DNA of 9,688 nt from an uncultured Fibrobacter sp. (GTDB taxonomy: Bacteria > Fibrobacterota > Fibrobacteria > Fibrobacterales > Fibrobacteraceae). Below are positions 1 to 9,688 of the stretch, one piece after another (within the stretch, counting starts at the first letter, position 1; every line of letters starts with the position of its first letter). The stretch lies in the NCBI GenBank assembly GCA_947306025.1, contig CAMZFJ010000041.1, positions 1 through 9,688 on the forward strand, given 5' to 3'. The position numbers and the translations under genes are program-made. The notes beneath the pieces are model-generated. The model was not told the origin of the DNA, did no database searches, and saw only the letters and a list, made by a program, of their open reading frames with translations.

Positions 1-15
1 GAAGGATGAAAAACA

Positions 16-921
16 ATGAAAAAATTACATCTGACACGTTTTGCCGCCGTGGCGATAGTCGCTCTGATGGGTTCAACCGCAGCTTGGGCTGATGATTCGG
101 GGTACGAGCTTTCTGGGGATGGTAAGACGCTAACGTTGAAATCGGATGGATCAGCTACATCTATTGAGATTACAGCTGGTGAAAAATTTAATAACGTGAC
201 AACTGTTAAAGTTGAACGAGGCTCATTGGGTACAACACAATATTCAACTATTATGCTTCCTGTAGACGTGTCTGTGGATGAACACGATCAAATTGATGCG
301 GCATATACAGTGGGGAGTATTAATTATTATGGTTCTGTTCCCGAATTGACCATGAATAAGGTTACTACTCTTTACGCTAATAAGCCATATATTATAAAGT
401 TTAAAGAGGGAAAATATGGCTCAAGTACAAATATTACATTCAGTACAACCTTCAGCGTTCAATCTACAGCTGTAAGTGGTGAAAAGCCTTATACTACTGA
501 AGTTTCTGGATCTTGCTTTTCGATGACAGGAACTTACGAAACCAAGCAATGGAATAATGGTAGTTCTCTTTCCAATGACTATGGTTTTTCTGCAGATGGT
601 ACTGATCAGGGAAAATTTGTTAGAATTCAAAATAATCCCAATGATGATTGCGTTACCATTTACCCGGCTCGTGCTTATTTGACATGCACCAAGCCTCAGT
701 TGGTGAATGGCTTAGGTAAGGTGGCTGAAGAGTCTCTCCCGGATGTAATCAACGTCCGTTTCGTAGACAAGGATGGTGGAACGTTGTCCATAGGCAAGAT
801 GAACACCAAGACTGGCGACATCCAGATGCAGGACCGCTATTACGATCTTAAGGGCCGCAAGCTTAACGGCAAGCCGCAGAACAAGGTCATGTACGTCAAC
901 AAAAAAGTTATTAAGCACTAA
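16..921 (+). CDS. Secreted beta-rich protein with C-terminal sorting-like tail
   Basis: A 301-residue protein of unknown function, predicted to leave the cytoplasm. Residues 1-25 form a clear signal peptide: a basic start (MKK), a hydrophobic core (AAVAIVALMG) and a likely signal peptidase I site after A-W-A, before D26. The mature part is rich in Ser, Thr, Gly and Asn, as in beta-sandwich surface proteins. It carries phrases typical of Prevotella/Fibrobacter secreted proteins: S-T-I-M-L-P-V-D-V near residue 80, A-N-K-P-Y-I-I-K near 125 and Y-P-A-R-A-Y-L near 220. The last ~30 residues (YYDLKGRKLNGKP, then MYVNKKVIKH) resemble C-terminal sorting tails of Bacteroidota/Fibrobacterota secreted proteins; this is inferred from pattern only. 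The start has a GAAGGA ribosome site at bases 1-6. The gene lies 18 bases before the small peptide gene, so the two are probably co-transcribed. The middle of the gene is visibly more A+T-rich than its end, suggesting a mosaic origin. Confidence 0.85.
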   Translation: MKKLHLTRFAAVAIVALMGSTAAWADDSGYELSGDGKTLTLKSDGSATSIEITAGEKFNNVTTVKVERGSLGTTQYSTIMLPVDVSVDEHDQIDAAYTVGSINYYGSVPELTMNKVTTLYANKPYIIKFKEGKYGSSTNITFSTTFSVQSTAVSGEKPYTTEVSGSCFSMTGTYETKQWNNGSSLSNDYGFSADGTDQGKFVRIQNNPNDDCVTIYPARAYLTCTKPQLVNGLGKVAEESLPDVINVRFVDKDGGTLSIGKMNTKTGDIQMQDRYYDLKGRKLNGKPQNKVMYVNKKVIKH

Positions 922-924
922 TTC

Positions 925-931
925 AAAGGAG
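925..931 (+). promoter_or_regulatory. Strong ribosome binding site of the small peptide gene
   Basis: AAAGGAG sits 8 bases before the ATG at 940. It is one of the best Shine-Dalgarno matches in the window. This supports real translation of the short ORF at 940-1092, which could otherwise be dismissed as chance. Confidence 0.8.
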
Positions 932-939
932 CTAAAATT

Positions 940-1092
940 ATGAAGAAAAAAGAATACGAAACTCCTAAGATGAGCTCGATTGATTTCGAATATAAAACAA
1001 GCCTTTTAGCTGGATCTTGTGGCGCAGAGGGTGTCAAGAATAGTGGCTTCTTGTCCTTGAACATCGATGATGTTACAGATCCCAAGGCTTAA
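940..1092 (+). CDS. Putative RiPP precursor peptide with YxxP leader (50 aa)
   Basis: A 50-residue peptide with a strong ribosome site, packed between the secreted protein (18-base gap) and the first nucleotidyltransferase (3-base gap). The N-terminal part is charged and polar: K2-K3-K4, then Y6-E-T-P9-K-M11, I14, F16 and T20-S21. The Y-x-x-P-x-(L/M) pattern matches the leader motif that PqqD-like B1 proteins recognise in lasso-peptide precursors, and a PqqD-like gene lies downstream. The middle reads L22-L-A-G-S-C-G28. The C-terminal part is small and acidic (GFLSLNIDDVTDPKA) with a single Cys at 27. Possible cleavage points are after T20-S21 (Thr at -2, lasso style, placing Glu30 as core residue 9), after A24-G25 (double-glycine style) or after A-G-S (signal-peptidase style). 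There is no hydrophobic signal sequence. The precursor role is inferred from size, motif and context; the product structure is unknown. Confidence 0.72.
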   Translation: MKKKEYETPKMSSIDFEYKTSLLAGSCGAEGVKNSGFLSLNIDDVTDPKA

Positions 1093-1098
1093 GCCTTG
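1083..1098 (+). promoter_or_regulatory. Perfect palindrome over stop/start junction; possible translational hairpin
   Basis: CAAGGCTTAAGCCTTG is a perfect 16-base palindrome. As RNA it can form a 6-bp stem (CAAGGC/GCCUUG) with a UUAA loop. It covers the likely AAGG ribosome site (1084-1087) and the TTG start (1096) of the nucleotidyltransferase, with the peptide gene's stop codon in the loop. Ribosomes finishing the peptide would open it, which suggests translational coupling. The structure is seen in the sequence; the function is inferred. Confidence 0.5.
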
Positions 1099-2196
1099 AA
1101 ACATTCTCTTGACGAAATGTTTTGTGAACTCCTGCGAGTGTCTCTCGGGCTCTCGCAGGTTTTTCCGTATATTCCGACTTCTGAAGAATGGCAGTCGCTC
1201 TATACAATGGCGCACCGCCAAACGCTCTTGGGGGTTGTTTATAATGCCATAGCGCGTTTACCCAAGGAATCTCAACCGCCACGTTTGTTAATGTTGCTTT
1301 GGGCTCGGGATGCCGAGGCTATCCGCGGCAAGAACCTCCTTTTCAATCAGGAGTCTGCCCGTTATACGAAAATGTTTGCCGAACGCGGGTTCCGCAGCGC
1401 CATCTTGAAAGGCCAAGCCAATGCGCGCCTGTACCCCGATCCGTTATCCAGGCATCCCGGCGATATTGATATCTGGGTTTCTGGCGGTTACGAAAAAGTT
1501 CTGGCGTTATTACAGGGGCTAGGGATTCAAAACCTTGAACATGTAACTCCTGACTATCACGACATTGAATTTGTAAATGAAAACAACGTCCTTGTGGAAG
1601 TCCACCACAAGCCGACTTCTGCAACATACGCGGTTCGATTAAATAAAACCTACGACGAAGTCCTAAAAGTCCTGGAGCCAGAACTTGAGAACCTTACGCT
1701 TACGTCTGAAGGTTTTTACAGCCCGAGCATCCGGTTTGCATTGCTCATGCAGCTAGTTCATTTGTACAAACACGCCTTGCTTTCTGGAGTAAGTCTTAGG
1801 CAGTATACGGATTACTATATACTGTTGACTCATTCTACTGAGGCTGACCGTCAATACACTTGGGAGTTTGCCCAAAAAATCGGGATGAAAAACGGTTGCG
1901 CCGCTATCATGGGTGTTCTTGGGCGTGTATTCAAGTTGCCTCAAGACAAAATGCTTTGCAAGCCAAGCAAATTCTATAGCAGAATTTTGTACAAGTCTAC
2001 ATTTGCAGAGGGCGACTTCGGTGCAAAAAAAACTTATAAACAAAATGTGTTTAAGCGCTGGTTCAACGACCGCGTTCAAAATTTGCGCATATTCCCGATT
2101 GCTCCCCGGTATTACATTTATAAGGAATCTAATTACTGGAAAAGTACAATTTTGCTTATTCCCGAGCGTATTCGACGTCGTAAAATAGCGCTTTAG
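1096..2196 (+). CDS. NTP_transf_5-type nucleotidyltransferase, first paralog
   Basis: A 366-residue cytoplasmic protein of the uncharacterised nucleotidyltransferase family (Pfam NTP_transf_5 type). The signature block is A-I-L-K-G-Q-A-N at about 101-108, followed by P-G-D123-I-D125-I-W-V, the metal-binding Asp pair of the polymerase-beta-like fold. V-E168-V-H-H-K-P is a candidate third acidic position. The C-terminal part has the family phrase L-C-K-P and a later G-D-F-G. Relatives in lasso-peptide clusters act after a peptide kinase, decorating the phosphate. The start is TTG at 1096, 3 bases after the peptide stop, with AAGG 8 bases upstream. This start gives an N-terminus that lines up with the paralog at 2307 (CELLRV versus YELLRI); the alternative ATG at 1117 would trim seven residues. 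A terminator-like hairpin lies inside the first 70 bases. The family call is firm; the substrate is unknown. Confidence 0.87.
   Translation: MKHSLDEMFCELLRVSLGLSQVFPYIPTSEEWQSLYTMAHRQTLLGVVYNAIARLPKESQPPRLLMLLWARDAEAIRGKNLLFNQESARYTKMFAERGFRSAILKGQANARLYPDPLSRHPGDIDIWVSGGYEKVLALLQGLGIQNLEHVTPDYHDIEFVNENNVLVEVHHKPTSATYAVRLNKTYDEVLKVLEPELENLTLTSEGFYSPSIRFALLMQLVHLYKHALLSGVSLRQYTDYYILLTHSTEADRQYTWEFAQKIGMKNGCAAIMGVLGRVFKLPQDKMLCKPSKFYSRILYKSTFAEGDFGAKKTYKQNVFKRWFNDRVQNLRIFPIAPRYYIYKESNYWKSTILLIPERIRRRKIAL
1131..1164 (+). terminator. Intragenic terminator-like hairpin (possible attenuator)
   Basis: CCTGCGAG (1131-1138) pairs perfectly with CTCGCAGG (1152-1159) across a 13-base loop and is followed at once by TTTTT (1160-1164). 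This is the form of an intrinsic terminator, but it lies inside the 5' end of the nucleotidyltransferase gene, about 40 bases after the peptide stop. Ribosomes translating that gene would block it, so it could act as a polarity-type attenuator. The five-base T run is short, so chance remains possible. Confidence 0.45.
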
Positions 2197-2261
2197 CATG
2201 GTCCTCCCTATAAGTTTATATCGCTTAACAATGTATTTTTTAGAGGTTCCCATAAATTAAA

Positions 2262-2290
2262 ACTTCGCCATGGCGGAGTCCTCTTTTTTT
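2262..2290 (+). terminator. Probable intrinsic terminator between the two nucleotidyltransferase genes
   Basis: ACTTCGCC (2262-2269) pairs with GGCGGAGT (2272-2279), with one T-G wobble and a tight CATG loop. It is followed by CC-T-C and seven T residues (2284-2290), and preceded by an A-rich stretch. It lies 65 bases after the first nucleotidyltransferase and 16 bases before the ATG of the second, in a 110-base gap. No convincing promoter fits between it and the next start, so partial read-through, a promoter within the first paralog or post-transcriptional processing must supply the downstream operon. Confidence 0.7.
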
Positions 2291-2306
2291 ACTAATTTGA
2301 GAATTG

Positions 2307-3467
2307 ATGGTACGCTTTGAAAAAGATGCTCTTTATGAACTTTTGCGGATAGCGCTAGATGACGAACGCTTGCCGTGCTCTTTTTCGCATAAGTTGACCG
2401 CTGGATCTTGGGATAATCTCCATACGGAATGTGCCAAGCAACTTGTTACAGGGGTTGTTTACAGAGCTATTAGTCGTTTGCCTCATGATTTACAGCCTCC
2501 TCATAAAATCGTATTGCGTTGGGCTCTCGAAGCGGAAACTATCAAGGGGCAGAATAAGCTTTTGAATGCCGAAGCCGCTAGGCTTACGGAATTATTTGCA
2601 ACACAAGGGTGCAAAACGGCTGTGCTCAAGGGCCCTGCCAATGCATTGCTTTATGTAGACCCCTATATGCGACAGGCCGGGGATATTGACTTGTGGGTTG
2701 ATGGCGGTCGCGACCACGTTTTTGCGGTAATGAAGAAAATGGGGTATAAGATTCACGAAAGGGATTTGTGCTCGTCGCATCAGGTTCATTTGGATCCTGA
2801 AGAAAACGGTGTTCCCGTTGAAATCCATTACCGGCCGTCTTCTGGAATATGGAATCCGTTTGCGAGTGCGCGCCTCCTGCGTTTTTTGGAAAAAGAAATC
2901 CAGAATGTAGAACGGGGGAGTGAAGGCTTTTATGTACCCTCGATCAAGTTTGCGCTTGCGATGCAGTTGGCCCATATTCAGGCTCATTTTATTAAGGATG
3001 GTATCGGCTTTAAACAAATCCTTGATTATTATGTGCTGTTGAAACATTCTTCTGAAGATGATCGTCGCGAAATTGCAAATAGACTTTCGAATTTTGGACT
3101 TTTGAAAGTTTGCGGAGCGCTCATGTGGATAATGGGCGATGTGTTTAAGCTTGATTTATCAAGGATGCTTTGTAAGCCGGATGAAAAGCGCGGCCGAAAA
3201 ATGCTCGCCATCATACAAAAAGGCGGAAATTTTGGTATTTATGAAATGGATTCGCTGAATGAAATTTCAAAGAACTTTGTTGTTCGATTTTTGAAGCATC
3301 GTTGGCGTAGTCTTCGGTTGATTTGGTTCGCTCCTGTTGATGTTGTGGTGAGCGAATTGGATTATTGGAAGGAGTTTTTTAAATCTATTTCTGTTCGGAT
3401 TAAATTGCGGCGATGGTCGCTTTGGGATTTGTCTCACTCTAAATATGTAAAGAAAGAAGCTCGATGA
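2307..3467 (+). CDS. NTP_transf_5-type nucleotidyltransferase, second paralog
   Basis: A 386-residue protein homologous along its whole length to the gene at 1096. Shared blocks include L-P-x-x-x-Q-P-P near residue 60, A-V-L-K-G-P-A-N, A-G-D126-I-D128-L-W-V (metal-binding Asp pair), V-E172-I-H-Y-R-P and M-L-C-K-P. It is about 20 residues longer, mainly at the C-terminus, which is basic and aromatic. Divergence between the copies is substantial (roughly half identical in the best blocks, judged by eye), pointing to an old duplication and possibly different substrates. ATG at 2307 is preferred over the in-frame TTG at 2304; the only ribosome site is a weak GAGA at 2299-2302. The stop overlaps the kinase start as ATGA. 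Likely role: nucleotidyl or sugar-phosphate transfer onto a peptide, inferred from family context in lasso clusters. Confidence 0.87.
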   Translation: MVRFEKDALYELLRIALDDERLPCSFSHKLTAGSWDNLHTECAKQLVTGVVYRAISRLPHDLQPPHKIVLRWALEAETIKGQNKLLNAEAARLTELFATQGCKTAVLKGPANALLYVDPYMRQAGDIDLWVDGGRDHVFAVMKKMGYKIHERDLCSSHQVHLDPEENGVPVEIHYRPSSGIWNPFASARLLRFLEKEIQNVERGSEGFYVPSIKFALAMQLAHIQAHFIKDGIGFKQILDYYVLLKHSSEDDRREIANRLSNFGLLKVCGALMWIMGDVFKLDLSRMLCKPDEKRGRKMLAIIQKGGNFGIYEMDSLNEISKNFVVRFLKHRWRSLRLIWFAPVDVVVSELDYWKEFFKSISVRIKLRRWSLWDLSHSKYVKKEAR

Positions 3468-4387
3468 TTAAGAAGTTTTTTAAAGTTGCTGAACATTTTT
3501 TTGCGGTAGAAGCCGACGAAGAAATTATGTCGCAAATGGGTAATTACGCTCCATTTGCGGTTGATTCGTGCGAAAATCCTGTGTTTTCGGTTGCGGTGCA
3601 AGAAGCTTCTGCGCCCGGATACACCGAAGAAATCAGTCAGGATGAAGAAGGACAATCGATTTTATGCGGGCGCACGGCAGATGGTTTGCTTGCGTTTGAC
3701 TTTTTGTTGTTCGGCGTATCTACGGGTGTCTTGGTGTGCGATAGTACGCTAAAAAAGTCTATGTTGTTTTTGACTCCACGAGATGTTTTGGCGATGTCGA
3801 CTGATGATGTCCAGCGAAAGCATGTCTTTGCTTTGAACAATTCGTTGATGGTTTTATTTGCGCTTGCGACCTCTGAATTGGATACGGCCTTGTTCCATGC
3901 GGCGGGAATCCGCTACAAGGGGCGCGGCTATTTGTTCTTGGGCAAGAGCGGAACGGGAAAGAGCACCCATGCAAGGCTCTGGCTCAAGTATAACGAGGGC
4001 TCCGAGCTGTTCAATGATGATAATCCTGTAGTGCGTTTGTTCAAAAATGCGGATGGAAAGCCGGTTGCTAAAGTTTTCGGTTCGCCGTGGAGCGGTAAGA
4101 CGCCTTGCTACAAGAATGTCGAAATGGAAATGGGCGGATTCGTATTGCTATCGCAGGCGCCGTTCAATAAGATTTCGCCGTTGAAAGGTGTTGCGGCATA
4201 CGCTGCTATTTTGCCTTGTATTTCTGGAATGCGGTGGGATAAAAAGATGGCCGATGGTTTGCATAAAACGCAAAACGGTCTTGTAATGTGTGTTCCATCG
4301 TGGTATTTAGAATGCCTGCCGGACGAAGAGGCGGCCACGTTGTGTTGTAAAACAGTCGTTTATGAAAATGGAGATTCCGCGCCATGA
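3464..4387 (+). CDS. HPr-kinase-like serine kinase, probable peptide kinase
   Basis: A 307-residue protein whose second half matches the catalytic fold of HPr kinase/phosphorylase. The order is L-F-H-A-A-G (about 144-148), a Walker A loop G160-K-S-G-T-G-K166-S-T, then L-F-N-D185-D186-N-P-V-V, which corresponds to the catalytic S-D-D segment of HprK, then the G-S-P-W-S-G-K-T motif (about 206-213) usual in HprK-like proteins of peptide clusters. The first ~130 residues are divergent and lack the usual HprK regulatory domain. No HPr or PTS gene is nearby. In paeninodin-type lasso clusters a homologous kinase phosphorylates the precursor peptide, so the small peptide encoded upstream is the proposed substrate (inference). 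The gene starts in a 4-base ATGA overlap with the gene before it, with AAAGAAG upstream, and ends in an ATGA overlap with the peptidase gene. Confidence 0.85.
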   Translation: MIKKFFKVAEHFFAVEADEEIMSQMGNYAPFAVDSCENPVFSVAVQEASAPGYTEEISQDEEGQSILCGRTADGLLAFDFLLFGVSTGVLVCDSTLKKSMLFLTPRDVLAMSTDDVQRKHVFALNNSLMVLFALATSELDTALFHAAGIRYKGRGYLFLGKSGTGKSTHARLWLKYNEGSELFNDDNPVVRLFKNADGKPVAKVFGSPWSGKTPCYKNVEMEMGGFVLLSQAPFNKISPLKGVAAYAAILPCISGMRWDKKMADGLHKTQNGLVMCVPSWYLECLPDEEAATLCCKTVVYENGDSAP

Positions 4388-4845
4388 GCGGTTCGGGAAA
4401 AAAGGATGACTCGCTGATTCTTGCCGAGGCGATTCGCATGGTCAAGAGTGGCGTGAGCGTCACGTTTCCGGTAAACGGGCGGAGCATGTTGCCGTTTATC
4501 GTGGGCGGGCGCGATAGCGTGATTCTGGAAAAGCCGAAAGAATTACGGCGTGGCGATGTGGTGCTTGCCCTTGTCAAAACGAACAGTCCCGGAAAACATT
4601 ACGTTGTGCACCGGATTGTTTCGTTGAACGGCGAGCATGTGGTGCTCATGGGCGATGGAAATCTTGCCTTGCGGGAATATTGTGATGTCTCGGATGTTTG
4701 TGCCAAGGTGATTTGCGTTGTAAAACCGAATGGGAAAAAATACGCTATGGCGGCTTGGCGATACCGAATCGCTGCAAAAATATGGTATATTCTGTTACCG
4801 ATTAGACGTTACTTACTTTGGATTTATAGGAAGATAAAAAAATGA
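4384..4845 (+). CDS. S24/S26 family serine peptidase, Ser/His type
   Basis: A 153-residue signal-peptidase-like protein. Visible motifs are P-V-N-G-R-S34-M-L-P-F-I (nucleophile Ser in the S-M-x-P box), R-G-D-V-V (about 55-59), Y-V-V-H76-R-I-V and L-M-G-D91-G-N93. The position that is Lys in classical bacterial signal peptidase I is His76 here, as in SipW/ER-type enzymes, so a Ser34-His76 dyad is likely. It lacks the N-terminal membrane anchor of LepB. The last ~30 residues instead form a basic, aromatic hydrophobic stretch (WYILLPIRRYLLWIYRKIKK) that could bind the membrane. Since the neighbouring ABC exporter has no peptidase domain, this enzyme is the best candidate for removing the precursor leader (inference). 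It overlaps both neighbours by ATGA; GGAG at 4370-4373 is its ribosome site. Confidence 0.83.
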   Translation: MSGSGKKDDSLILAEAIRMVKSGVSVTFPVNGRSMLPFIVGGRDSVILEKPKELRRGDVVLALVKTNSPGKHYVVHRIVSLNGEHVVLMGDGNLALREYCDVSDVCAKVICVVKPNGKKYAMAAWRYRIAAKIWYILLPIRRYLLWIYRKIKK

Positions 4846-5111
4846 AAATCAAGAAAGGTTTTGTGCTGCGCGATGTGTGCGGTGAACAGGTGATTATGGG
4901 TGAAGGTATTGGTGCTCTCGATTTTGGACGCCTCCTTTGCTTGAACGAAACGGCAGCTTGGCTTTGGAAACAGGCCGAACAGCAAGGCGACTTCACCGTA
5001 GATTCCCTTGCCGAAGCGCTTTGCGGTGAATACGACGTTGGTGCAGAACAGGCGAAGGTCGATGTTGCTGCTATTGTCGCCGAATGGCAAAAGGTGAACG
5101 TGCTCGAATGA
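4842..5111 (+). CDS. PqqD-like RiPP recognition protein
   Basis: An 89-residue protein matching the PqqD family, the stand-alone RiPP recognition element that binds leader peptides and presents them to modifying enzymes. The typical order is seen: an N-terminal beta region (FVLRDVCGEQVIMGEG), then D-F-G-R-L-L-C-L-N-E-T-A-A-W-L-W-K at about residues 27-43 (the conserved LN-x-TA-x-x-(I/L)-W helix), then T-V-D-S-L-A-E-A-L, a Y-D-V segment and a C-terminal D-V-A-A-I-V-A-E-W helix. Length is normal for the family. It probably binds the Y-x-x-P leader of the peptide encoded at 940-1092. It starts in an ATGA overlap with the peptidase gene (ribosome site AGGAAG at 4828-4833) and ends in an ATGA overlap with the exporter, so its output is tied to both. 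Confidence 0.88.
   Translation: MKIKKGFVLRDVCGEQVIMGEGIGALDFGRLLCLNETAAWLWKQAEQQGDFTVDSLAEALCGEYDVGAEQAKVDVAAIVAEWQKVNVLE
5091..5097 (+). promoter_or_regulatory. Ribosome binding site that fixes the ABC exporter start
   Basis: AAGGTGA lies 10 bases before ATG 5108, inside the end of the PqqD-like gene. The in-frame ATG at 5084 has no ribosome site upstream. Choosing 5108 also gives the same 4-base ATGA overlap seen at the three preceding junctions. Confidence 0.7.
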
Positions 5112-6790
5112 AATATATCGCTTGGCTGTGGCGCGGAACAAAAGGCTTTCGCGTAAATATTGTCGCTCGCATTTTGGCGGGAATCGCACGCGTGGCATGC
5201 GGTCTTTTGATGATATGGCTCAGCAAGCGGTTTATTGACGAAACGATACGCACAGGATCGCAAGATGATATTGTGCGTATGATTGCGTTCCTTGTTTTTA
5301 CTGTGGTGGGGACGATTGTCCTTAGGCTCCTGTATTATTACATGACTGCATCGGCCTCGGTGAAAATGACTAATGCGCTTAGGCTGTTCTATTTTGGCAC
5401 GTTATTTAAGCGGCCGCTTTTTGACGGGCATGAATTGCATTCGGGCGATGTGTCGTCGAGGCTTTCGAAGGATATTGAAACGGTATCGACTTCGGTGATC
5501 GATACGCTCCCGCAGATGGCGGTGACGGGAATCCAGCTTGTGGGCGCATTCCTTTTGATGCGTTGGTTTGATGCCCGGCTGGCATGGGCGCTTCTGTTGC
5601 TTACGCCCGTGATGGTCGTTGTGGGTAAGCTGATTTCGCGCAAGTTGCGCAAGATGACGTTAGACATTCGCGAGGGCGAAAGCCGCATCCAGATGCAGGT
5701 GCAAGAAGGCGTGGAATACAATGCCGTGTTGCGTTCGCTCGAAAGCGAAAGCTGGGTGACGGAACGGCTTGGTTTAAAACAAAATAAACTTGAACGCGAT
5801 GTGCTGCGGCGGACTCGCTTTACGACAGTCGCGCGTTTTGCAATAGGCTCTGCGTTTGGACTTGGCTATTTGCTAGCCTTTGTGTGGGGCGGGCTTGGGC
5901 TGCGCGATGGGACGATTACGTTTGGCGTGATGACTTCTTTTTTGCAGTTGGTCGGGCAAATCCAGCACCCGATTTTGACGTTGCTTGGGATGGTGCCGCA
6001 ATTGGTGCATTCGACCGCGAGTATCGACCGCTTGGATGAACTGGTGAAAAAGGCTGTGGTTGATGCTGGGGAGTGCGCGGGTGAAACGCGCGGGGAAGAG
6101 CTTGGAAAAACGCCTTCTGGAAAGACTTTGGAATTGCACTCTGAACTGCGCGGGCGCCTTGGCTTGCGGTTAGAGAATGTACGCTTTGGCTATGCGGGCG
6201 GCGATTGCGAAATAGTCCGTAATTTTTCGCACGATTTTATGCCCGGGAGCAAGGCGGCGATTATGGGCGAGACCGGTAAAGGCAAGACGACTTTGTTCAG
6301 GCTTTTGCTCGGTTTTGTAAAGCCCGATAGTGGCCGCATGGTGATTTATTCGAATGGCGCCGTTGTGGATGTTTCGGAAGAGACGCGTTCGAATTTTGTG
6401 TATGTGCCGCAGGGCAATACGCTGATGAACGGCTCCGTGCGATACAATTTGCAGTTGGCAAAGCCCGATGCGACTGACGATGAAATGCGCCGCGTTTTGC
6501 ACATTGCTTGTGCGGAATTTGTGGAGACGTTGCCCGATGGAATTGATACAGAAATTGGGGAACGCGGGCATGGGCTTAGTGAAGGCCAGGCGCAGCGCAT
6601 TGCGATTGCCCGTGGGCTTTTGCGCCCCGGCAACATTTTGCTTTTTGATGAAATCAGTTCTTCGCTGGATGAGGAAACCGAGGCGGAACTTTACCGCCGC
6701 TTATTCGAGGCCTTCCCGGAAAAGACGATGATCTTTGTAACGCACCGAACCGCTGTTTGCGAAATGTGCGATGAAACGGTCCGGCTGTAG
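5108..6790 (+). CDS. ABC exporter, fused transmembrane and ATPase domains
   Basis: A 560-residue half-transporter of the type I exporter (MsbA/McjD-like) class, expected to work as a homodimer in the inner membrane. Residues 1-300 hold about six membrane helices (approximately 18-40, 55-80, 130-150, 155-175, 240-262 and 270-290). The ATPase domain follows: Walker A G387-E-T-G-K-G-K-T-T, Q-loop V-P-Q435-G, signature L490-S-E-G-Q, Walker B I-L-L-F-D514-E515, and H-loop T-H546. All catalytic residues are intact. There is no N-terminal C39 peptidase domain, so it does not cut its own substrate. The linker at about 312-355 is long and hydrophilic with repeated Gly/Glu/Lys. As the last gene of the coupled operon, its likely job is export of the finished peptide, possibly with self-immunity. 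The start at 5108 is chosen over 5084 because of the ribosome site and the ATGA overlap. Confidence 0.9.
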   Translation: MKYIAWLWRGTKGFRVNIVARILAGIARVACGLLMIWLSKRFIDETIRTGSQDDIVRMIAFLVFTVVGTIVLRLLYYYMTASASVKMTNALRLFYFGTLFKRPLFDGHELHSGDVSSRLSKDIETVSTSVIDTLPQMAVTGIQLVGAFLLMRWFDARLAWALLLLTPVMVVVGKLISRKLRKMTLDIREGESRIQMQVQEGVEYNAVLRSLESESWVTERLGLKQNKLERDVLRRTRFTTVARFAIGSAFGLGYLLAFVWGGLGLRDGTITFGVMTSFLQLVGQIQHPILTLLGMVPQLVHSTASIDRLDELVKKAVVDAGECAGETRGEELGKTPSGKTLELHSELRGRLGLRLENVRFGYAGGDCEIVRNFSHDFMPGSKAAIMGETGKGKTTLFRLLLGFVKPDSGRMVIYSNGAVVDVSEETRSNFVYVPQGNTLMNGSVRYNLQLAKPDATDDEMRRVLHIACAEFVETLPDGIDTEIGERGHGLSEGQAQRIAIARGLLRPGNILLFDEISSSLDEETEAELYRRLFEAFPEKTMIFVTHRTAVCEMCDETVRL

Positions 6791-6847
6791 GCGGAGTGTT
6801 CGGAATATTTTGAAGGAATGCCGCCGGTCTAGGGGTGCTTTGGTGGG

Positions 6848-6880
6848 CGTTTCAAAAAAATGCTTTGAAACGTTGTTTTT
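6848..6880 (+). terminator. Hairpin plus T-tract ending the exporter operon, or an activator site
   Basis: CGTTTCAAA (6848-6856) pairs with TTTGAAACG (6864-6872) as a 9-bp stem with a 7-base loop, followed by TTG and TTTTT (6876-6880). It begins 58 bases after the exporter stop, where an operon terminator is expected. The stem is A+T-rich, so termination may be weak. The same inverted repeat lies about 150 bases upstream of the sigma-54 promoter start, a usual place for enhancer-binding proteins, so a DNA-binding role is an alternative. Confidence 0.5.
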
Positions 6881-6926
6881 GAAACGCTTGCGTGTTATTT
6901 TTTGAATAGGTGGGGGCTTTGAAACG
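6848..6926 (+). repeat. Repeated TTTGAAACG boxes upstream of clpB
   Basis: The nonamer TTTGAAACG occurs three times in direct orientation (6864-6872, 6878-6886, 6918-6926) and once inverted (6848-6856). The first and third copies share the longer GCTTTGAAACG. Relative to the predicted clpB start at about 7009 the direct copies lie near -145, -131 and -91. This arrangement fits an activator-binding array for a sigma-54 promoter; that role is inferred. Confidence 0.5.
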
Positions 6927-6949
6927 GCTCGAAATGGCTTTTTTTTTCG

Positions 6950-6963
6950 AAAATCGCGATTTT
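6950..6963. promoter_or_regulatory. 14-bp palindrome upstream of the clpB promoter
   Basis: AAAATCGCGATTTT is a perfect palindrome centred about 52 bases before the predicted clpB transcription start and 20 bases before the -24 element. It could be an operator for a dimeric regulator. No specific regulator is recognised. Confidence 0.35.
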
Positions 6964-6981
6964 TGGGGTGCTAGGGAACTT

Positions 6982-6999
6982 TTGGCACATTGTTTGCAA
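6982..6999 (+). promoter_or_regulatory. Sigma-54-type promoter of clpB
   Basis: TTGGCAC-N5-TTGCAA matches the RpoN consensus (YTGGCAC-N5-TTGCW) almost perfectly. The invariant GG is at 6984-6985 and the invariant GC at 6996-6997, with the standard 10-base separation. The predicted start is near 7009, giving a short leader of about 24 bases with the AGGA ribosome site at 7025-7028. No good sigma-70 or sigma-32 elements are seen nearby. Confidence 0.7.
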
Positions 7000-7032
7000 T
7001 AGGGATGGGGAAAAAAGAAAAGCGAGGATAAA

Positions 7033-9600
7033 ATGTCCGATTTTACTAATGATGCTGAAAAGGTTTTGGCAAAAGCGCAGAGCTTGCGTGACCGTTGTTC
7101 GCACTCTTACCTGGGTGCGGCGCATTTGGCCGTTGGCCTTGTTGAAGGCCCCGATGCAACCTTGAAGAAACTTTATAAGTCCAAGGGTGTGAAGACTTCG
7201 GAACTCCGTGGCCGTTTGGAACCGTTTGTCCAGAAAATCCCGCGTATGGAAGGCGTGAATCCGGATGTAGAACCGGATAGCGACTTGAACCGTATCTTGC
7301 GTGCGGCTGTGCAGGCGGCTCGTCAGGTAAGCCGTATGGTGACGCCGGGCGATTTGCTCGTGGCGTTGATGAAGTTCTCGGGCGACCGTGCGCTTTCGAA
7401 GGTGTTTGCCGATGCGCTTGGCTCGACCGAAGTGGTGGAAACCTGGCTTTCGGACCCGTTTGCAGGTGCCGCGAATGCCGAGGAACAGTCTCCGCTGAAA
7501 CTTTATGGCCGTGAACTTGTGGAAATGGCAGCGGACGGAAAGCTCTCGCCGGTGATTGGCCGTGAAGAAGAAATCCGTCGTGTGATTTTGATTTTGAGCC
7601 GTAAGACAAAGAACAATCCGTGCTTGGTCGGTGAACCGGGTGTGGGTAAGACCGCTATTGTCGAAGGCCTTGCCGAACGTATTTACCGCGGCGACGTGCC
7701 GGATGCGTTGAAGGGCAAGAAGGTCTTTGCGCTGGATTTGTCGGCCTTGATGGCGGGTGCAAAGTACCGTGGCGACTTTGAAGAAAGGCTCAAGAGCGTG
7801 ATTGACGCTATCGAAGAAGATGGCAACACGCTGATGTTCATCGACGAACTCCACAACATTGTGGGTGCGGGCAAGACCGAAGGCTCGATGGACTTGGGCA
7901 ACATGCTTAAGCCGAAGCTCGCTCGTGGCGAACTGCATTGCATTGGTGCGACGACAACGCAGGAATACCGCAAGTACATCGAAAAGGATTCCGCTTTGGA
8001 ACGAAGGTTCCAGCCGGTGCAGGTTTCGGAACCGAGCGAAGACGAAGCGATTTCGATTTTGCGTGGCATTAAGGAAGGTTTTGATGCGCACCATGGCGTA
8101 CGTCTGCACGACAACGCGCTGGTGGCAGCCGTGAAACTTTCGAACCGTTACATCAGTGACCGATTCCTCCCGGATAAGGCTATTGACTTGATCGACGAGG
8201 CGGCAAGCCTTGTGAAAACGCAGATGGACACCGTGCCGGAAGCGCTCGATACCTTGCAGCGTAAGGAACTCCAGATGAAGATCGAGGAGCAGGCCTTGGC
8301 GAAGGAAACGGACGAAGCGAGTGTGAAGCGCTTGAAAGAACTCCGTGAAGATCTTGCCGTAACGGATGCTGCGGTCAAGAAAATGCAGGAACGCTGGCAG
8401 GATCGCCGTGCCGCATTTGCCGAAGTGCAGGACTTGAAGAAATCCTTGAAGGCCGCAAAGGACGAGATGGAACAGGCCGAAGCCCGTTACGACTTGAACC
8501 GTGCTGCCGAACTCAAGTACAATAAGATTGTGAACATCGAAAAGGAACTTGCCCAGAAGACCGAAGCGCTCCGCAAGAGTGCAGAAGAAGGCGGCTTGAG
8601 CGAAGAAGTCACGGAAGAGACGATAGCGCTTGTGGTAAGCCGTTGGACGGGCATTCCGGTAACGAAGCTTTGCGAAGGCGAAAAGGCGAAGTTGTTGCAC
8701 TTGGACGAACGTCTGCATGCCCGCGTGATTGGCCAGGACGATGCCGTGGAAGCCGTGTCCGAAGCGATTTTGCGTAACCGTAGCGGTTTAAGCCGTGAAA
8801 ATGCTCCGATTGGTAGCTTCTTGTTCCTCGGCCCGACGGGTGTTGGTAAGACGGAACTTGCGAAGGCTTTGGCTGTGGAACTTTTCGATAGCGAAAATGC
8901 GCTTGTGCGTATCGACATGAGCGAATACATGGAAAAGCATAGCGTGAGCCGTTTGATCGGTGCTCCTCCGGGATACGTGGGCTACGAAGAAGGCGGCCAG
9001 CTGACCGAAGCCGTGCGTACGCATCCGTACTGCGTGATCTTGCTCGACGAAATCGAGAAGGCGCATCCGGACGTGTTCAATACGCTGTTGCAGGTGTTGG
9101 ACGATGGCCGTTTGACGGACGGCAAGGGCCGTACGGTGAACTTCAAGAACACCTTGATTTTGATGACTTCGAATCTGGGTGCCGAGAAGTTCCGCTTGAG
9201 CGCTGCTAGCGCCAAGAACGGTGTACCGCCGCAGGTGTCGCTTGAAGATGTCGAAGCTGATTTGCATGCGTTCTTCCGCCCGGAATTCTTGAACCGCTTG
9301 GACGAAGTGCTTGTGTTCCAGAGCCTCTCGAAACCGCAGATCCGCGATATTGTCAAGCTTAAATTTGCGGACTTGGCAAAGCGTGCGGCTCGTCAGGACT
9401 TGGTGCTTACGCTTTCGGATGCGGCGCTTGATGCGATTGCGGAAGGCGCTTACCAGCCGGAATTCGGTGCTCGTCCGATCCAGCGTTATATCGAACGTAA
9501 CATTGAACGCCCGTTGAGCCACGCGATACTCTCGGGAACCGTGAGTGCCGCAAAGCCCGCTGTCGTGGACTACCAGAACGGAATGTTTGTGGTTGCTTAG
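7033..9600 (+). CDS. clpB: ClpB protein disaggregase
   Basis: An 855-residue cytoplasmic AAA+ chaperone that, with DnaK/DnaJ/GrpE, pulls proteins out of heat-induced aggregates. Domain order is complete: N-terminal Clp repeat domain (about 1-145); first ATPase domain with Walker A G200-E-P-G-V-G-K-T207, Walker B L267-M-F-I-D-E272 and arginine fingers R324-R325; a long coiled-coil M domain (about 395-515) that marks ClpB rather than ClpA; and a second ATPase domain with Walker A G600-P-T-G-V-G-K-T607 and Walker B V668-I-L-L-D-E673. Pore-loop motifs K-Y-R-G and G-Y-V-G-Y are present. No ClpP-docking I-G-F/L loop is seen, as expected for ClpB. Codon use is strongly biased, as in a highly expressed gene. 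The ribosome site is AGGA at 7025-7028. It stands alone behind a sigma-54-like promoter and is probably unrelated to the peptide cluster. Confidence 0.97.
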
Positions 9601-9603
9601 GGA

Positions 9604-9631
9604 ACAGGTGTTAGGTATTAGGTGTTAGGTA
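9604..9631 (+). repeat. Short tandem heptad repeat TTAGGTR
   Basis: Three exact-phase copies, TTAGGTA (9611-9617), TTAGGTG (9618-9624) and TTAGGTA (9625-9631), follow a degenerate copy ACAGGTG (9604-9610). They begin just after the clpB stop. Function is unknown; the array may be the edge of a dispersed intergenic repeat. Confidence 0.6.
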
Positions 9632-9638
9632 AAGAATC

Positions 9639-9675
9639 GCGGCTTTGCCGCACTATAATAACGCACGAAGTGCGT
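9639..9675. other. Two small hairpins downstream of clpB
   Basis: GCGGC-TTT-GCCGC (9639-9651, 5-bp stem) and ACGCAC-GAA-GTGCGT (9661-9675, 6-bp stem) lie 9 bases apart. Neither is followed by a T-tract, so they are not clear intrinsic terminators, though one may protect the clpB mRNA end. With the adjacent heptad repeats they look like a composite intergenic repeat element cut by the window edge. Confidence 0.45.
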
Positions 9676-9688
9676 GTTACTTATCCTA

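Follow-up and report, generated by a model that had tools for sequence, protein, structure and literature searches.

Linear polyphosphorylated peptides (LPPs) are a family of ribosomally synthesized and post-translationally modified peptides (RiPPs) described in May 2026 by Popov et al. with the lpp cluster of Paenibacillus alginolyticus (PMC13381572). In the parts of that paper drawn on throughout this text, the family is restricted to Bacillota and its core set comprises an HprK-like kinase, a nucleotidyltransferase (NTP transferase), an archaeal-type signal peptidase, a stand-alone RiPP recognition element (RRE) and an MsbA-like exporter. LppK adds up to four phosphates to Ser3 of the LppA core, LppS removes the leader with the help of LppB and the product remains linear; LppN had no visible effect in a heterologous host (PMC13381572). 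Lasso clusters of the paeninodin type share a YxxP leader, a B1-like RRE, an HprK-like kinase and an NTP transferase, and hexoses are added via PsmN to phosphorylated pseudomycoidin, according to the sections used here of a review (PMC9266682).

Here we report on a gene cassette in a 9,688-nucleotide stretch of DNA from an uncultured Fibrobacter sp. (contig CAMZFJ010000041.1, positions 1 to 9,688; the whole stretch is called the window), in which all five LPP enzyme kinds are matched and stand next to a short peptide gene. By analogy with the LPP enzymes, we consider it likely that these genes form an LPP-like RiPP pathway, with a cassette that acts in trans on precursors scattered over the genome. 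The set lies tightly packed on the forward (+) strand and consists of a 50-aa precursor peptide (940..1092), two NTP_transf_5 proteins, a (1096..2196; PF14907, E=3.6e-44; TTG start as listed, ATG at 1117) and b (2304..3467; PF14907, E=3e-46), a kinase of the HprK/PEPCK fold (3464..4387), an archaeal/ER-type signal-peptidase-like protease (S26/S24-type; 4384..4845), a stand-alone PqqD-type RRE (4842..5111; PF05402, E=1.4e-13) and an MsbA-like ABC exporter (5108..6790, with the listed open reading frame (ORF) starting at 5084; PF00664, PF00005, MsbA model E=6.1e-65). The sequence-only reading of this DNA had named these genes beside a 50-residue peptide, and domain matches and fold comparisons bear out all of them; its picture of a YxxP-leader RiPP with RRE, kinase, NTP transferases, protease and exporter fits as well. 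It had called the system undescribed, a label that the publication of the same enzyme set in Bacillota has overtaken (PMC13381572), and it missed both that most precursors are remote from the cassette and that the gene upstream of the peptide is part of the pattern. This gene (16..921, +) encodes a 301-aa secreted-type protein with a signal-like N-terminus, judged by eye, and the C-terminal tail 'YYDLKGRKLNGKPQNKVMYVNKKVIKH'; as it fits a recurring arrangement described below, we moved the start of the unit upstream to base 16.

Sequence models tie the kinase to HprK only weakly (Hpr_kinase_C E=0.27, HprK_rel_B E=4e-4), and a kinase profile reached HprK in the PDB only at E=0.39. Its predicted structure (mean pLDDT 89.2) matches the folds of PEPCK and HprK, with the qualification that all 50 rows listed by VIA-align are PEPCK and that HprK entries occur only in the Foldseek list. 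His145, Lys166, Asp185 and Asp186 are invariant among 18 aligned relatives of the kinase; these relatives also bear a precomputed Pfam accession, PF27840, an entry that the searched Pfam copy lacks. The S26-type protein has TIGR02228 as its best NCBIfam model (E=1.9e-7, below the curated cut-off of the model), and its Ser34, His76 and Asp91 are invariant in 65 aligned relatives; by analogy with LppS we propose it as the leader peptidase. The kinase, the S26-type protein and NTP transferase b, each searched as a single sequence, had no useful match in the PDB. The predicted fold of the RRE matches the leader-bound lasso RREs TbiB1 and TfuB1, and an RRE profile found true RREs in the PDB (TfuB1 at 8.4e-4, PbaB1 at 0.011 and TbiB1 at 1.5). 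The exporter is without an N-terminal peptidase domain, the NHLM ABC1 model aligning only from profile position 142.

The enzymes recur together. Kinase, S26-type protein, PqqD and ABC exporter were all found in 59 of 81 loci (the window and 80 fetched ones), a census in which the queries were the single sequences of the window and many incomplete loci were clipped by contig ends or missed. In another 16 kinase loci from Bacteroidales, each about 3.5 kb long, S26 is present in 13 and PqqD in nine. NTP_transf_5 genes, two of them in the window, are present in 29 of the 30 genomes checked; among 51 such genes, the kinase lies directly downstream of at least 15 and a listed peptide directly upstream of at least 12, both counts being lower bounds, since the peptide lists are incomplete, and leaving out weak fragments.

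Much of this set is also known from lasso clusters and might point to an ordinary lasso peptide system with its cyclase and B2 peptidase elsewhere in the genome: the kinase, the NTP transferase, the B1-type RRE and the YxxP/WxxP leader are common to both, and one relative of the peptide matches the paeninodin precursor model at E=6.7e-4, below its cut-off. The B2 leader peptidase (PF13471) occurs in none of 72 cassette genomes, while the control genomes were positive in 2 of 14, and in the 16 Fibrobacterota genomes searched no match to Asn_synthase is better than E=3.3e-6. Asn_synthase in nine of ten Bacteroidota genomes is a single gene of at least about 560 aa, an ordinary length, and it lies on a different contig from the kinase in the two genomes where it was placed (G005 and G213). 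No cyclase is seen beside the cassette, the conserved Ser lies at the end of the leader and not at the C-terminus as in peptides of the paeninodin and pseudomycoidin type, and the portions used of a rumen survey report lasso clusters in Firmicutes only (PMC7533575). The PF13471 and Asn_synthase counts largely refute a lasso peptide with a remote cyclase, which we regard as very improbable. The sequence-only reading had offered, as an alternative to a lasso system, a non-lasso class whose main modification is phosphate- or nucleotide-based; on the same counts this is the best fit.

The window peptide carries YETPKM (955..972, +), the motif expected to bind the RRE ([Y/W]xxPx[hydrophobic], as defined in PMC13381572), followed by LLAGS (1003..1017, +) and a 24-aa acidic remainder. 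It matched no Pfam or NCBIfam family. In three other Fibrobacterota genomes (L117, L119 and L120) a tail protein, a peptide, an NTP transferase and the kinase follow one another as in the window; the NTP transferase there shares 85-89% identity with NTP transferase a, and fragments upstream of the syntenic peptides are 85-92% identical to the 16-921 protein over 52-61 residues. From its start through LLAGS the window peptide is identical to these homologues at 20-23 of 26 positions, compared with only 9-10 of 24-28 aligned columns beyond it; a conserved leader followed by a variable remainder matches the leader-core pattern of RiPPs. In all three, the module of tail protein, peptide and NTP transferase a immediately precedes the kinase, with no NTP transferase b in between. 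From base 2284 onwards the window matches, at 91% identity, a contig (L001) of the closest genome, the metagenome-assembled genome (MAG) Fibrobacter succinogenes RUG12208, and bases 1-2283 have no counterpart in this 21-kb locus; the module seems to come and go between genomes.

A profile for the peptide was built from 29 sequences, 28 chosen by eye and that of the window; the 28 came from 50 regular-expression matches among 13813 short ORFs, of which the other 22 resembled chance translations. Run against 12 genomes picked because they carry the kinase, the profile gave matches in all 12, at 88 places in total and 2-28 per genome. The family shares the leader motif YxxPxM...LLxxS. Among 120 unique peptides (110 loci; 135 rows with identical ones included), LLxxS, with related residues allowed, is present in 109, compared with 7.7 on average and at most 18 in 500 shuffles, and it persists in 81 of 91 after thinning by similarity; Ser played no part in selecting the first 28 peptides, and the later matches are biased towards LLxxS because the profile includes the motif. 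The distance from Tyr to Ser is 20 residues in 97 peptides, 19 in ten and 21 in two; the position counts are anchored on [YFC]..P, so that Pro is at 100% by construction. The stretch after LL is acidic, with a median of 22 residues and a charge of about -3.5 per peptide. That the peptide is a chance or regulatory ORF might be argued from its shortness and from the want of a curated family, but its conservation at the protein level in 120 unique relatives, the excess of LLxxS over shuffled sequences and the syntenic homologues refute this as far as coding is concerned, and we find the idea hardly credible.

Two observations concern more distant peptides. In L139, a divergent peptide missed by the profile (2385-2549, -; MKKLYTSPEIEVVEVIEYGFAASEPLGRSKVSQSFEEEEF) lies directly upstream of a distant Bacteroidales kinase, and the system may therefore be wider than counted here. 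In two Prevotellaceae loci, a Cys-rich peptide with an FxxP leader and a radical SAM/SPASM maturase stand alongside the cassette (L056, 46-186 and 381-1718; L070, 660-800 and 1002-2339); the best models for the maturases, at E=1.2e-34 and 5.1e-34, are far below their cut-offs. These loci are possibly hybrids of LPP-like and thioether-type maturation.

Records of the cassette come from Fibrobacter, Prevotella, Segatella and other Bacteroidales, usually with one cassette and 1-28 scattered precursors per genome, most of them away from the cassette. Two MAGs have two kinase loci each, RUG10775 (L051, L070) and RGIG3308 (L020, L060), and L056 has two consecutive kinase genes. Among 150 evenly sampled Fibrobacterota genomes, a strong kinase match, nearly always in single copy, was obtained in 62 and peptides, 1-12 each, in 63; kinase and peptide occur together in 61, the kinase only in one, the peptide only in two and neither in 86. 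The corresponding counts for 247 Bacteroidales genomes are 4, 12, 0 and 231. Fisher p for the concordance is 1.7e-38 in Fibrobacterota and 1.2e-5 in Bacteroidales, with counts and p values that ignore relatedness and in which the Fibrobacterota signal mostly reflects one lineage compared with others. The peptide family is thus nearly restricted to genomes with the kinase. The sequence-only reading had named the lack of a conserved short peptide at homologous loci as a point against it, and such peptides do stand there. The peptide accompanies the kinase in 61 of 62 kinase genomes of Fibrobacterota and in 4 of 16 of Bacteroidales.

The same counts bear on whether the enzymes act on some other substrate, for example a polymer of the cell wall or the secreted protein, with the peptide being incidental. 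LPP clusters of Bacilli sit in capsule loci (PMC13381572), and linkage to a different substrate was raised by the sequence-only reading as a point that could count against it. The pairing with secreted-type genes set out below touches on such a linkage, and those proteins may be partners and not substrates. We consider an incidental peptide improbable: the leader is conserved through LLAGS while the remainder varies, the predicted RRE fold would be that of a peptide-leader binder, and the peptide profile matches none of the 231 kinase-negative Bacteroidales genomes and only two of the 88 kinase-negative Fibrobacterota genomes.

The precursors have distinctive neighbours. At least 62 of the 88 peptide places lie on the same strand and at most 500 bp downstream of a gene bearing a C-terminal tail with the consensus WYDLxGRKLxxKPTxKGxYIxNGKKVxIK, mostly with gaps of 8-75 bp; a tail gene stands on the other side of the peptide at 2 of the 88. 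The figure of 62 is a lower bound, as the pairing used 150 of the 296 tails in the 12 genomes, and 296 randomly placed tails would be expected to give 0.28 pairings. Outside both profile sets, the tail pairing holds for 59 of 69 unique peptides in Fibrobacterota and for 2 of 20 in Bacteroidales, both of the latter in G269. In G213 another kind of secreted-type partner takes this role: all 12 fetched precursors stand ahead of such a gene, with ORFs of 392-467 aa, and a lipobox pattern is present in 11. Three places in G009, G011 and G269 show the same arrangement, each with a lipobox. Some partners contain surface-type domains, namely List_Bact repeats (L008) or Big_2 (L227, L233), others no recognised domain, and the window protein 16-921 matched no useful Pfam or NCBIfam family. 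A crude signal-peptide filter was passed by 26 of 29 complete tail partners and also by 94 of 147 other ORFs, and says little because most other ORFs pass too. Five partner proteins searched against NCBIfam and Pfam at E<=10 matched no sorting-domain model of the type IX secretion system (T9SS), and the tail was left uncovered. The tail is reminiscent of a shortened T9SS sorting domain.

These neighbours might reflect nothing more than co-regulated surface and accessory genes, the modified peptides being free signals or antimicrobials. Consistent with this, G010 and G012 are without the tail pairing, and among 37 unique peptides with no upstream tail some, such as those in L100 and L166, adjoin housekeeping genes and have no evident surface-protein gene beside them. 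Tails would also appear to work without a precursor: one follows only 60 of the 150 listed tail genes, and tails, a wider family than the pairings, occur in 13 of 247 Bacteroidales genomes (4 of the 16 kinase-bearing ones, 9 of the other 231). Free peptides are a reading that we hold to be quite possible, if short of probable. Set against it are the excess of pairings over chance, their short gaps and the finding that G213 has a different type of secreted partner at 12 of 12 fetched places; this suggests that the pairing of precursor and partner is itself under selection.

Returning to the LPP-like pathway, a model for its activity may be drawn from the gene set and the LPP precedent. The PqqD-type RRE would bind the YxxPx[hydrophobic] leader of cassette-side and scattered precursors alike, and the kinase would phosphorylate the conserved Ser of LLxxS once or several times (in the window peptide this is Ser26, codon 1015-1017), a site proposed from the parallel with Ser3 of LppA. 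The NTP_transf_5 proteins may then decorate the phosphorylated peptide further with a nucleotide or a sugar-phosphate, and the signal-peptidase-like protease would cut the leader within or beside LLxxS. Two registers can be envisaged: LL|xxS (LL|AGS in the window), which would leave Ser third after the cut as in LppA, or Lxx|S, with a small residue before Ser. The product, short, acidic and linear, would leave the cytoplasm through the exporter and may then act with, or for, the secreted or surface protein encoded next to its precursor, a partner role that gene order suggests. In its fullest form, which we advance tentatively and which is rather unlikely as a whole, a single cassette would supply up to about 28 proteins, secreted or lipid-anchored, each with its own acidic peptide, phosphorylated and perhaps also nucleotidylated or glycosylated, as a dedicated ligand, cofactor or covalent adornment.

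Several findings weigh against an LPP-like, trans-acting cassette, among them the relatedness behind the concordance and the motif bias noted above. The leader consensus of LPPs, YxxPxVLxHQxIxFETxxS, is absent from the window peptide (YETPKMSSIDFEYKTSLLAGS), which shares with it only YxxPx[hydrophobic] and a later conserved Ser, and the spacing from Tyr to Ser is 20 here compared with 18 in LPPs. The RRE profile gave eight matches in the PDB at E<=10, and LppB (9X8Z) is not one of them. One of the 30 genomes checked is without an NTP_transf_5 gene, and a single-sequence search placed such a gene near the kinase in just 26 of 81 loci. Twelve of the 16 kinase-bearing Bacteroidales genomes gave no profile peptide; L139, with its divergent peptide adjoining the kinase, is among these 12. 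No listed tail gene lies upstream of 26 of the 88 precursors, and the tail pairing is 0 of 10 in G010 and G012 and 0 of 15 in G213.

Because the full leader consensus is absent, we do not file the system as a member of the LPP family; the likeness in enzyme set may reflect shared descent or convergence. The system probably works like LPP, sharing with it the YxxP leader, a signal peptidase with Ser, His and Asp, a conserved Ser beside the end of the leader and no need of a macrolactam cyclase. It differs in that none of 72 cassette genomes has lasso B2, and further in its hosts, Fibrobacterota and Bacteroidales as opposed to Bacillota, in its usually many genome-scattered precursors compared with one to three per cluster, in the pairing of these with secreted-type genes and in its leader motif; the last four points are new relative to the LPP paper. 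Previously mined RiPPs of the same order, Bacteroidales, also have small precursors and an exporter, but in the parts used of that study (PMC10352776) they have radical SAM or YcaO enzymes, GG leaders and peptidase-containing transporters, unlike the present system, and those parts make no mention of HprK, NTP transferase or S26 peptidase. In the open-licence literature we found no account of the system in Fibrobacter or Prevotella.

The LPP enzyme set thus occurs in dominant fibre-degrading bacteria of the rumen, usually once per genome and with many scattered precursors, and by analogy rumen Fibrobacter and some Prevotella relatives should be equipped to phosphorylate, trim and export small peptides. 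Searches limited to clusters would overlook most precursors of such a pathway. The positions of the precursors name individual secreted or surface proteins as candidate partners, which makes the purpose of phosphorylated linear RiPPs directly testable.

Elsewhere in the window, an Rfam scan gave nothing at the gathering score, and terminator-like sites are not in excess (15 observed, 13.0 expected from shuffles); one of them, a hairpin with a weak consensus match, lies between the two NTP_transf_5 genes (2262..2279, +). The cassette is followed by a gene that we name ClpB from its sequence (7033..9600, +). Behind it, at 9608-9688, are short repeats (ggtgttaggta...), hairpins and terminator-like sites. 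Antisense to ClpB runs an open frame of 607 aa (6895-8718, -), with a counterpart of 875 aa in L001, which is probably an effect of codon bias.

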